From: Candidatus Gastranaerophilales bacterium
GTDB taxonomy: Bacteria; Cyanobacteriota; Vampirovibrionia; Gastranaerophilales; Gastranaerophilaceae
DNA: 64,000 bases
Reading direction: 5' to 3'
Assembly (NCBI GenBank): GCA_944322865.1
Contig: CALUQJ010000002.1
Coordinates: forward strand, 1 to 64,000
The notes beneath the pieces are model-generated. The model was not told the DNA's origin. It ran no database searches and saw only the letters and a program-made list of their open reading frames with translations. Position numbers and translations under genes: made by a program. This document shows positions 1,588 to 18,976 of this stretch, one piece after another; the stretch's first letter is position 1; each line of letters begins with the position of its first letter.

Positions 1588-2016
1588 TTATTCTGCCTTT
1601 ACTGTAACACCCATTGCTCTGCAAGAACCTTTAATCATGTTCACAGCAGCTTCCAATGTAGTTGCATTTAAGTCGTTCATTTTAATTTTAGCAATTTCCT
1701 CAAGCTGAGCCTGAGTAATTTCGCCGACTTTGTCTTTGTTAGGAACTGCTGAACCTTTAGGTAAGTTCAGTGCTTTTTTAATCAATACAGGTGCCGGAGG
1801 TGATTTTACGATGAATGAAAAACTTCTGTCTTCGTAAACATCAATAACAACCGGGATAATATATCCTGCTTGAGATTCTGTTTTTGCGTTGAATTGTTTA
1901 CAGAAATCCATGATGTTAACACCGTGTTGACCCAGTGCCGGACCAACCGGAGGTGATGGATTTGCTTTTCCTGCTTCAATTTGAAGCTTGATTTTTCCTA
2001 CTACTTTTTTTGCCAT
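1588..2016 (-). CDS. rplK: 50S ribosomal protein L11
   Basis: L11 forms the GTPase-associated centre with 23S rRNA and is needed for factor-dependent GTP hydrolysis and stringent-response sensing. The 142-residue length is typical. The N-terminal proline-rich segment [18 protein letters not shown] (about residues 19-36) is diagnostic, and KxGEITxxQxxEIAxxKMxDLN-type residues follow near 115-135. The ATG at 2016 has AAAGGAG upstream. It lies 109 bases after nusG, a gap that carries two small GNRA-type hairpins and an L1-binding-like element. Confidence 0.98.
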
Positions 2017-2030
2017 TTTTTTCTCCTTTT

Positions 2031-2058
2031 GTGGTTATAACGGGGGCGTCCCTTCCAC
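2031..2058 (-). promoter_or_regulatory. Putative L1-binding leader element before rplK
   Basis: On the minus strand the 28 bases read GTGG, AA, GGG, a short loop, CCC, GTTATAA, CCAC. GTGG pairs with CCAC and GGG with CCC around an asymmetric internal loop. As I recall, Firmicutes rplK leaders contain a similar CCCGTTATAACCAC-type strand that is bound by L1. It ends just before the rplK ribosome binding site, a position suited to translational feedback. Confidence 0.6.
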
Positions 2059-2079
2059 ATTACTTAGTTAACATACTTT

Positions 2080-2113
2080 GTGCTTGCGCACTATTATTTT
2101 TCTGCTTGCGCAG
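2080..2113 (-). other. Tandem GCAA-tetraloop hairpins
   Basis: On the minus strand two 12-base hairpins, CTGC-GCAA-GCAG (2102-2113) and GTGC-GCAA-GCAC (2080-2091), share the core TGCGCAAGCA and are separated by an A/T spacer. They sit between nusG and rplK. The role is unknown: they could be an RNA processing site, an attenuator or a protein-binding site. Confidence 0.45.
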
Positions 2114-2125
2114 AGTTTTTTTAAA

Positions 2126-2752
2126 TTACAATTTGTTTATCTGCTTGTATTCAAGTTCAACCGGAGTTTCGCGACCGAAGATTGAAACATTTGCGCGAAG
2201 TTTAGATTTATCCGGATAAACTTCAATAATGTCAGCGATGAAGTCAGCAAACGGTCCGGATATAATTCTGACTTTATCACCCGGTTTAACATCGAGTTCA
2301 ATTTTTTGAGTTTGTGATGATGAGCGGTTGATAATCTTTTTAATTTCGCTGTCACGAGCCGGAATTGGACGTTTAGCTGAGCCTACGAATTTTGTAACAC
2401 CTGAGGTGTGTCTTACAACATACCAGCTGTCCTCATCCATTATCATTTCTACAAGAACATAGCCAGGGAAGATTTTTTCTTCTCTTTCCTGCTTTTTGCC
2501 GCCTTTCATCTGGGTAACGGTCTTTTGCGGAACTTCTATTCTGAATATCTTATCGCCCATATTCATGTATTCAACACGTTTTTCAAGGTTTACTTTTACT
2601 TTGTTTTCGTAACCTGAATATGTGTGAACAATATACCAGCGTTTTTGAGCTTTTTTAGCTTTCTTTTCTTCTTCCGCTGCCTGAGCTTGAGCTTCTTCTA
2701 AAGCTTTTTCTTCATTCAGTTGTTCTTCCATTGATTTTTCTTTTTTTGCCAT
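2126..2752 (-). CDS. nusG: Transcription termination/antitermination factor NusG
   Basis: NusG binds RNA polymerase and links it to Rho or to the ribosome. A charged extension of about 45 residues precedes the NGN domain, which begins at RWYIVHTYSGYENKV. The C-terminal KOW domain is at PGDKVRIISGPFADF. The family's usual length is about 180, so the lysine/glutamate-rich N-terminal tail explains the 208 residues. I prefer the ATG at 2752, preceded by AGGTGG. A TTG at 2773 would add seven residues but has a weaker ribosome binding site. It lies 40 bases downstream of secE. Confidence 0.95.
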   Translation of the reverse strand: MAKKEKSMEEQLNEEKALEEAQAQAAEEEKKAKKAQKRWYIVHTYSGYENKVKVNLEKRVEYMNMGDKIFRIEVPQKTVTQMKGGKKQEREEKIFPGYVLVEMIMDEDSWYVVRHTSGVTKFVGSAKRPIPARDSEIKKIINRSSSQTQKIELDVKPGDKVRIISGPFADFIADIIEVYPDKSKLRANVSIFGRETPVELEYKQINKL

Positions 2753-16837: not shown

Positions 16838-16865
16838 TAAAGATTAGGCTCAGGAAAGCCGATAC
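16838..16865 (+). promoter_or_regulatory. Sigma-28-like promoter candidate
   Basis: TAAAGATT (16838-16845), 12 bases, then GCCGATAC (16858-16865) closely match the flagellar sigma-28/SigD consensus TAAAGTTT-N11-GCCGATAA, with one extra spacer base. The expected start site leaves a leader of about 37 bases before the ATG at 16909. A sigma-70-like TATAAT at 16821 has no matching minus-35 element. Confidence 0.55.
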
Positions 16866-16908
16866 CAATAGTAAGGAAAACTAAGTAATTTGAAAGGCGA
16901 TATTTACT

Positions 16909-18915
16909 ATGGGTATGGCAGCATCACAAGCTAGACTTTTATCTATCACGACACGTATGTCGGATAATGAGCTGCGCTCCCAGCTTATCAACAACCAGAA
17001 AATGCGCCTTGCAACAGAAAGTTCTCAGGTTAGTGAAAACTATATTAACGCTTTGAATGAAGCTCAATATATGTTCACTAACTATGATGCTGATAATAAG
17101 GCTACCTATCAACAATTAACATTTAATTCAATGACTGCATTCAATGAATACAACAACCAGTATGGTGTTTCTAATGCAGCAGGTCAGATTTTGGTTTCAG
17201 AAACAGATGGCAAAAGATTTGAAGATGCTGACGGAGATTTGGCAACCTTCCTGAAAGCATATGGTCTTGAATACAAAACAACTTATTTTGATGAATTAAC
17301 AAATCTTTATGGTACAGGACCGGTAAAACTTGATACCGTTAACAATATTGACGGTACAACCACTACTAACTATTCAAGATATAACGCAGAAGAAATACAA
17401 AAAATCTACGAAGGCGATCAGGATGATGGCGGTATTCATGCAGGTTATGAAAATTCATTGATGAGTACATCTTACAACGATTACCTGAAACTGGAAGATA
17501 AATATGTCGATGCCAGAGAAAATTATTACATGATAATTGAAGATGTAATGAGAGAATATGCAGATGGGATAACTGGAGAATATAACGGTCATTCAATCTC
17601 TTATAAAGATTTGCTGACTTATACACAAGGTTCTGCTGATGGCAATTCAATCAAAAACCTTTATGCATTTGAAGCATTAATTAACAAAATGGAAGATCAA
17701 GGTAAATTCAATCTTGATGCAAACTATGAATATATCGATGCAAATGGCGTTTCAACTTATATGAGTTTCCCTGCATATATGCAGAAATTAATTGATGAGT
17801 GCAAATACACGAATAACGATACAACAAAACGTTCTACAGTACCAGTATCTTATAACGGTAATGTTGCAACAATTGAATTAGATGATGACTATGTTATTGA
17901 GATTACAAAAAATACAACAGCTAATACCTACACAACAAAAGTGTTGTCATATGACGATACCGGTGCTCTTGTTGAAGCTCCGCAATCAGAAGATGGTGAT
18001 CCAAACTGGAAATGGATAACTCAACCTACAGCAAATCAGACTTCAGGAACTATAGGGTTTTATGAAGAAGGCTATGATTATGGAGATAACTTCCAGTATA
18101 CTTTCACCTGGGGTAGTGATACTGCTTCTGTAACTGAAACTTTAAAGAATAATTATAACCAGTTTGTATATTTTGAAAACTTAGCGTCATTGGTAGATTA
18201 CTTTAATGATGCAATGATAAATGCTTTTAATCCTGAAGAATTTAATTCTGCCGCACAAAACAGTGGTAATTATCAACAGTATTACAATGATTATGTAAAT
18301 GCAGCAGGAGATTTATACGAATTTATATTTGGTCAAGGTAATCGAGGACAATTTGATGATTATGCAAATCTTGACGATTATAAATGGTGTTTAGATAAAG
18401 GTGGAACATCACAAAACTATCAATCTGTTGCTGACGTTAAAGCAATAGATGAAGTCTTTGCAATATATGGCGAACCGAAATACGCATATGTCAAGGAAGG
18501 CGATGGCGATGCCAATGCTGATGCTGAAGCAGAATGGTATACAAATTTATTCAACCGTATGCAAGATGGCGGTTATAAAGTAATTGAAAACGGTCTTGCT
18601 TCAAGCGCAGAATGGATGAGATATGCTCTTGAAAGCGGTCTTATCAAAATGGAACAGGTTGATAAAAATAATAAATGGAGTTCTATTACATTTACAAGTT
18701 GCAGTGATATCACAGAACAAACAAATGATGTTGCTGTGACTATTGCAGAAGCTGAATACAACAAAGCAATGAATAAAATAGAAAACAAAGATAAAGTGTA
18801 TGATATGGAATTAAAAAATATTGATACTGAGCACACCGCATTGCAGACAGAATACGATTCCATAAAATCAGCACTTGACAAAAACGTTGAAAGAAACTTC
18901 AAATTATATTCATAA
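16909..18915 (+). CDS. Large filament-like protein of unknown family
   Basis: The 668 residues have no signal peptide or membrane span. The N-terminus MGMAASQARLLSITTRMSDNELRSQ and the following 45 residues are helical and heptad-like. The C-terminal 60 residues (NKIENKDKVYDMELKNIDTEHTALQ) are also coiled-coil-like. The middle is acidic, rich in Asn, Tyr and Asp, and low in Cys. Helical ends around a variable centre recall flagellin, hook and other axial proteins, which are exported without a cleaved signal. I recall similar N-termini in Melainabacteria but no assigned function. The ribosome binding site is GAAAGGCG. The sigma-28-like promoter upstream fits an axial-protein reading; both points remain inference. 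Confidence 0.75.
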   Translation: MGMAASQARLLSITTRMSDNELRSQLINNQKMRLATESSQVSENYINALNEAQYMFTNYDADNKATYQQLTFNSMTAFNEYNNQYGVSNAAGQILVSETDGKRFEDADGDLATFLKAYGLEYKTTYFDELTNLYGTGPVKLDTVNNIDGTTTTNYSRYNAEEIQKIYEGDQDDGGIHAGYENSLMSTSYNDYLKLEDKYVDARENYYMIIEDVMREYADGITGEYNGHSISYKDLLTYTQGSADGNSIKNLYAFEALINKMEDQGKFNLDANYEYIDANGVSTYMSFPAYMQKLIDECKYTNNDTTKRSTVPVSYNGNVATIELDDDYVIEITKNTTANTYTTKVLSYDDTGALVEAPQSEDGDPNWKWITQPTANQTSGTIGFYEEGYDYGDNFQYTFTWGSDTASVTETLKNNYNQFVYFENLASLVDYFNDAMINAFNPEEFNSAAQNSGNYQQYYNDYVNAAGDLYEFIFGQGNRGQFDDYANLDDYKWCLDKGGTSQNYQSVADVKAIDEVFAIYGEPKYAYVKEGDGDANADAEAEWYTNLFNRMQDGGYKVIENGLASSAEWMRYALESGLIKMEQVDKNNKWSSITFTSCSDITEQTNDVAVTIAEAEYNKAMNKIENKDKVYDMELKNIDTEHTALQTEYDSIKSALDKNVERNFKLYS

Positions 18916-18949
18916 ATTTTACTTAATTTTCCGATTAAAAATTTTCCCG

Positions 18950-18976
18950 GCAGACCACAAGGTCTGCTTATTTTTT
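18950..18976 (+). terminator. Intrinsic terminator after the 668-residue gene
   Basis: GCAGACC (18950-18956) and GGTCTGC (18961-18967) form a 7-bp stem with loop ACAA, followed by TTATTTTTT. It ends exactly at the stop codon of the convergent kinase-like gene. Confidence 0.85.

Follow-up and report, generated by a model that had tools for sequence, protein, structure and literature searches.

A sigma-28-type promoter precedes one of about ten variable paralogues that probably form the late regulon of a second flagellum-derived type III system in Candidatus Gastranaerophilales

We analyzed positions 1 to 64,000 of the forward strand (hereafter the window) of contig CALUQJ010000002.1 from a Candidatus Gastranaerophilales bacterium (GenBank assembly GCA_944322865.1), a gut bacterium and non-photosynthetic cousin of the cyanobacteria. 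This report concerns an open reading frame (ORF) encoding a 668-residue protein, the promoter in front of it, and a set of flagellar-type genes elsewhere in the same genome, which we call System B. Shortly 5' of the ORF lies TAAAGATT-aggctcaggaaa-GCCGATAC (N12; 16838-16865), the sigma-28-like box that an earlier note on this DNA had claimed and that we located where it was said to be. The degenerate pattern TAAAGNNTN12GCCGNNA (TAAAGNNT-N12-GCCGNNA) has its single match in the 64-kb window at this site, with 0.02 expected from shuffled sequence, and a scan of the window sequence listed no sigma-70-like site 5' of the ATG at 16909. The spacing of the box is one base longer than that of the E. 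coli sigma-28 consensus. Positions of all features are collected in Table 1.

Table 1. Features of the promoter and the 668-aa gene, with positions in the window and the basis of each assignment.
Feature	Position	Strand	Basis
Sigma-28 -35 element TAAAGATT	16838..16845	+	Sequence; element and spacing shared with 77/95 relatives; logo
Spacer, 12 nt between both 8-mers (TAAA-N16-GCCG)	16846..16857	+	Letters aggctcaggaaa; spacing specificity
Sigma-28 -10 element GCCGATAC	16858..16865	+	Sequence, genome-wide pattern search, family alignment, logo
Probable ribosome-binding site GAAAGG	16892..16897	+	Position only
ORF, 668 aa, MG[ML][AS]ASQAR family	16909..18915	+	ATG at 16909, end 18915
N-terminal helix, residues 2-50; strongest conservation in the family (GxxASQARLLSIT)	16912..17058	+	AlphaFold2, alignment
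Central region, residues 51-606, acidic, variable, predicted mixed alpha/beta	17059..18726	+	AlphaFold2, conservation
C-terminal helix, 61 residues (607-667), conserved	18727..18909	+	AlphaFold2, alignment
Intrinsic-terminator-like hairpin GGCAGACC-ACAA-GGTCTGCT, then T-run	18949..18968	+	Weak: 2 found vs 1.3 expected in shuffles

Across the whole genome the same pattern matched eight times, and a reversed-pattern control did not match at all. Five of the eight matches precede paralogues of the window gene (on contigs C2, C6, C14, C24 and C60), two shortly precede other ORFs (C34 and C67), and the eighth (C4) is no clear promoter. Of the ten clear paralogues in this genome, nine match the box in at least 8 of its 9 letters and one, of 424 aa, does not. 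We also scored nine letters of the box in the DNA 5' of 95 family genes, most of them from Ca. Gastranaerophilales metagenome-assembled genomes. At exactly the window spacing, at least 8 of the 9 letters were found in front of 77 genes (1.2 in shuffles) and all nine in front of 47 (none in shuffles); 15 genes had a spacing one base shorter, and every other spacing was near background. Positions that had not been selected were conserved too, with T before TAAAG in 73% and A at the third base after GCCG in 85%. The hallmark of a sigma-28 promoter, TAAA(G) and GCCGATAA-type elements at a fixed spacing, is present in the window and in the relatives. These motif comparisons confirmed that the promoter belongs to the whole family, with FliA as its predicted sigma factor, and such a promoter lets the list of late genes be read from sequence.

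The box on C34 lies 75 nt 5' of a gene whose product has an EF-hand-like start and is at least 484 aa long (L045:1-1452, minus strand), likely a further member of the late regulon. C67 holds two small, mutually similar ORFs of 125 and 129 aa (L047:1555-1932 and 2008-2397, plus strand) with one sigma-28 box each; neither had a family match, and they could be anti-sigma (FlgM-like) or chaperone candidates.

The window protein belongs to a family with ten clear paralogues and some shorter members in its own genome. Nearly all paralogues start MG[ML][AS]ASQAR and finish ...DKNxExxFKxF[SG], with a middle that varies in sequence and length; lengths range from 300 to 840 aa around a hypervariable center. 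Column conservation was 0.64-0.85 for residues 1-50, about 0.1-0.3 for residues 126-525 and 0.59-0.76 for residues 601-668, residues 51-125 and 526-606 being moderately conserved. AlphaFold2 models of the 668-aa protein (mean predicted local distance difference test score, pLDDT, 85.8; helices at residues 2-50 and 607-667) and of a 300-aa relative (pLDDT 84.3) have in common a 49-residue helix at the N-terminus and one of 61 residues at the C-terminus, with a mixed alpha/beta center in between. The center of the 668-aa protein is acidic (pI 4.1), and no signal peptide is visible. This agrees with the description in the earlier note, helical ends around a variable acidic center and no signal peptide, and the MGMAASQARLL start that it had singled out proved invariant or nearly so in the family, about ten paralogues being counted, nearly all of them with the same promoter.

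Two further kinds of protein accompany the long members. Genomes examined from the bacterial families f4, f9 and f10 encode 109-aa mini members, in which a turn such as DPESP connects two helices; the long sigma-28-driven members of f1 (the family of the window genome) and f2 resemble hairpins of this kind into whose turn a domain has been inserted. A 129-aa helical ORF (L045:2606-2995) close to the EF-hand-like gene on C34 also resembles the minis. The other is a partner protein of 270-302 aa, with a hydrophobic, glycine-rich middle and a coiled C-terminus, that adjoins a family member in six loci, f1, f2, f4 and f10 genomes included; it is encoded beside a sigma-28-independent family member. 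Pfam and NCBIfam gave no credible match for the 668-aa protein, no recognized host-interaction domain in it, and only coiled-coil noise for the family and minis, and neither the family nor the minis nor the partner found a credible relative among PDB sequences in profile searches. Searches of Pfam and PDB sequences gave the minis no needle-protein match, so that the likeness to needle subunits that we had suspected is not backed by sequence.

Foldseek searches of the PDB led to distal proteins exported by type III systems. For the 668-aa model, flagellar filament chains made up 10 of the top 13 matches, including two chains of a cap-filament complex (best E 1.7e-3, template-modelling (TM) score ~0.1). 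For the 300-aa model, the tip proteins IpaD/SipD/BipD made up 8 of the 9 best matches (ranks 2-9; E ~0.05, probability 0.2). We treat these weak, model-based matches as leads, not proof. With flagellins and hook-associated axial proteins (PF00669) the family shares a sigma-28 promoter, the lack of a visible signal peptide and a variable center between long conserved terminal helices, and flagellins are the top matches of the 668-aa model; unlike flagellins, it has no sequence match to them and no significant fold similarity, and it coexists with true flagellins in flagellated relatives. The injectisome tip proteins are likewise type III exported and built as a helical hairpin plus a central domain, but the 300-aa member that resembles them has no sequence match and only the E value given above.

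The genome encodes the sigma factor itself (FliA, C26:714-1376; 245 bits against an NCBIfam cut-off of 189.6) and a distributed set of flagellar-type genes. FliE, FliF, a FliG-like protein, FliH and FlhA lie in this order on C74; FliM/N-like, FliO, FliP, a long FliQ (extended to 162 aa) and FliR on C45; FlgC, FlgB, FlgG-like and FlgF-like proteins on C35; and FliK and an FlgE-like protein, plus an ORF in the FliJ position, on C1. With the C-terminal part of FlhB on C10 (40% identity over 278 aa), every component of the export gate (FlhA, FlhB, FliP, FliQ and FliR) was found. FlhA, which scores below the NCBIfam cut-off (706 vs 772), is followed by a YidD-like ORF near the contig end; FliI was not located, no genome-wide FliI search having been made, and it directly follows FlhA in System B of the relatives G173, G181 and G160. 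The FlhB part is followed by a second, shorter FliA-like sigma factor of 219 aa; together the two genes lie in L038:3-1579, and the pair is also present in relative L078. The operons of System B are scattered over the genome, and therefore no flagellar-type gene is visible near the window gene; the earlier note's statement that none is near holds for the surroundings, flagellar-type genes being present elsewhere in the genome. Of the homologues that the note had pointed to, FliA and FlhA were present, FlhB as its C-terminal part, and FliC was absent, with no Flagellin_N match in this genome or in the 668-aa protein. Lack of a sigma-28 gene, lack of type III export genes, or transcription from an unrelated sigma-70 site were named in the note as fatal to its proposal, and none of them was encountered. 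The sigma-28 boxes precede late-type genes, and the System B structural operons that we examined have none.

Homologues of FlhA, FlhB, FliOPQR, FliEFH and FlgBCFG tie System B to the flagellar export apparatus and basal body, and because FliO, FliE and rod proteins are among them, the system points to flagella rather than to injectisomes. It differs from the flagellar apparatus in an FlhA only 37% identical to the flagellar FlhA of relatives, in the 162-aa FliQ, in the protein at the FliG position, which matches no Pfam or NCBIfam FliG model, and in having no flagellin. The last two differences also bear on the proposal that System B is a second true flagellum, the family being extremely diverged flagellins and the organism a swimmer. 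Rod, FlgE-like and FliK parts, sigma-28 late genes and the flagellins at the head of the fold list all suit that proposal, but with no Flagellin_N match whatsoever and a FliG-like protein outside every Pfam and NCBIfam FliG model we consider it, on these two markers, improbable. On C5 we also observed a 491-aa protein (L031:5944-7419, minus strand) in which the FlhA cytoplasmic domain (FHIPEP positions 312-655) stands alone, preceded by a weakly DUF4177-like N-terminus and lacking the membrane part; a second FlhA match is seen in most genomes of the family.

A census of 194 genomes of the class, 97 of them from f1, found flagellin in 50, a rod/hook domain in 135, FlhA in 140 and the protein family in 116. 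All 97 f1 genomes have the protein family, 22 with flagellin and 75 without. At least 18 flagellated f1 genomes hold two full-length FlhA copies, of ~860-880 and ~714-727 bits; flagellin-less f1 genomes show the second kind only, and the FlhA of the window genome scores 732 bits. Among 12 genomes compared for FliP, the window genome and other flagellin-less f1 genomes have one copy and flagellated ones two. In the FlhA tree the flagellar (A) and second (B) kinds split with 100/100 support, and our FlhA shares 82-83% identity with the second copies in the flagellated genomes G173 and G181, against 37% with the flagellar copies of these two genomes. The FliP tree shows the same split, with second copies from f2 (G190) and f4 (G002) falling in B and f5/f7 copies sister to B. 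Gene order differs as well, being FliP-FliQ-FliR-FlhB-FlhA in the flagellar set and FliE-FliF-FliG-like-FliH-FlhA-FliI and FliM/N-FliO-FliP-FliQ-FliR in System B.

Partial flagellar gene sets of gut Melainabacteria have so far been read as decaying flagella, for MEL.A1 by Di Rienzi et al. 2013 (PMC3787301) and likewise by Soo et al. These published incomplete flagella (MEL.A1; Ca. Gastranaerophilus) come from the same order, Gastranaerophilales, and resemble it in gene content: export and basal parts are there, and filament, cap, hook-filament junction and L and P rings are missing. Applied here, that reading would make sigma-28 and the basal-body genes leftovers of a lost flagellum and leave the family without an export function. 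We dropped the idea of a degenerate flagellum after the census showed two FlhA types in flagellated relatives. The genes retained are the B set, distinct in trees and gene order, and flagellated relatives hold both sets; therefore a flagellum in decay does not fit. B-type FlhA also keeps its full length and high conservation in almost all of the ~75 flagellin-less f1 genomes, and promoter spacing is conserved to the base, so that we regard a relic as very improbable. On the evidence of trees and gene order, System B is a second, separate flagellum-derived set, probably with its own sigma-28 late regulon, where the papers saw loss.

FlhA was matched in 116/116 family-positive genomes and in 24/78 family-negative ones (Fisher p 2e-29, the genomes being related), and the protein family is absent from bacterial families without FlhA. 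Sigma-28 has been kept in the window genome, which has System B but no flagellin. Three gene arrangements are compact. A 14-kb stretch of L118 holds FliE-FliF-FliG-FliH together with two family members, the 270-aa partner, a 100-aa protein and a 110-aa mini. L111 has a family member directly 5' of FliE, and L124 has one directly 3' of an FlgE-like gene. Gene linkage as proof of a tie between the family and System B was rejected, since 4-5 such loci among 80 is about chance, and we therefore cite only these three arrangements as support.

Starting from the promoter, sigma factor, family, separate export gene set and conservation that we observed, we think it probable that the 668-aa gene is one of about ten paralogues in the sigma-28-controlled late regulon of System B. 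In the mechanism that we propose, the products of genes that we observed would form a membrane-anchored channel: the FlhA/FlhB/FliPQR gate, the FliE/FliF base, FliH (with FliI), the FliM/N-like and FliG-like proteins, a short rod (FlgB, FlgC, FlgF/G-like), the FlgE-like protein and FliK. As in the hierarchy of flagellar genes, FliA would then act at TAAAG-N15-GCCG promoters to transcribe the late genes, and the late proteins, with no visible signal peptide, would leave via System B. Export of the family by System B is in our view quite probable. The predicted folds suggest that the conserved terminal helices may pack as an axial or needle-like core, comparable to flagellin D0/D1 or to tip proteins, with the variable acidic center facing the gut environment; that the family polymerizes at all has, in our estimate, just short of an even chance. 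The 270-302-aa partner may be another exported component. The earlier note had offered a flagellar-type export system that uses the 668-aa protein: the export genes, FliA and the paralogues support this in part, with export and filament formation as predictions and a fold likeness that is weak. It had missed that the export system is a second one, which flagellated relatives carry besides their flagellum.

Several observations weigh against this interpretation. Assembly of System B, export and an external axial structure are what we infer. The co-occurrence of the family with FlhA is confounded by phylogeny, most paralogues are scattered, and the number of System B-linked loci lies within the chance estimate (3-5). 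In f5 and f7 (L193/G015 and L191/G006), System-B-sister FlhA and FliP occur without the protein family. Among genomes examined from f4, f9 and f10, it is represented by the 109-aa minis only, with no clear sigma-28 box, and System B was seen alongside minis in one f4 genome only, f9 and f10 not having been checked for it. FlhB of the window genome is represented by its C-terminal part only, at a contig edge, and FliI of System B was seen in relatives only. All Foldseek matches had E > 0.001, a probability of ~0.2 and TM-scores of ~0.1-0.2. Finally, sigma-28 transcribes non-exported genes too in flagellates, such as chemotaxis genes. The family might accordingly consist of sigma-28-regulated cytosolic or envelope proteins unrelated to export, the more so as a secretion signal is not readable from sequence alone; given conserved terminal helices, a hypervariable middle, multiple copies and an occurrence so far confined to genomes with flagellar-type FlhA, we rate this as quite improbable. 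We observed separately that f7 is also without flagellin.

An unlikely but serious alternative keeps export and gives up the polymer: System B would export the family as soluble proteins of a surface, adhesin-like or effector type, with helical ends that serve as export and chaperone signals instead of holding a filament together. Many paralogues of widely differing length with a hypervariable center would be natural for such proteins, the 300-aa model resembles the IpaD/SipD tip proteins, whose role is to cap filaments and not to build them, and the hydrophobic partner adjoins one member. Against this, conservation sits in both terminal helices jointly, as in axial proteins, the best matches of the 668-aa model are flagellins, and no host-interaction domain was recognized.

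We advance a wider proposal tentatively, as somewhat short of an even chance. Gastranaerophilales and related families of the class may possess a further type III organelle besides flagellum and injectisome, with a flagellum-derived base, no flagellin and probably no motor, and on its outside a polymorphic, sigma-28-timed filament or surface array made of a family that is unrelated in sequence to flagellin and arose when variable domains were inserted into a 109-aa helical-hairpin ancestor. None of the open-access papers searched described a second type III system for Melainabacteria, Gastranaerophilales or Vampirovibrio, or the protein family; what appears novel here, as far as gene content can tell, is a flagellum-derived type III system with an undescribed family of late proteins. 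If this is true, these bacteria would actively use a second export system, each genome supplying about ten variable substrates, and a widespread group of uncultured gut bacteria would own an undescribed surface or secretion organelle facing the host or other microbes. It would also be a natural flagellum-like machine working without flagellin, which bears on the relationship between flagellum and injectisome.

Two family members in the window genome are broken by a frameshift, one near the C-terminus (L023:5418-7267, C32) and one after residue 46 (L030:6695-7884, C11); assembly error, phase variation and pseudogenes are candidate explanations. On C14, the stretch directly 5' of a family member (L027:7589-13917, minus strand, for the stretch) carries genes that by eye look phage-like, a terminase-like one among them.
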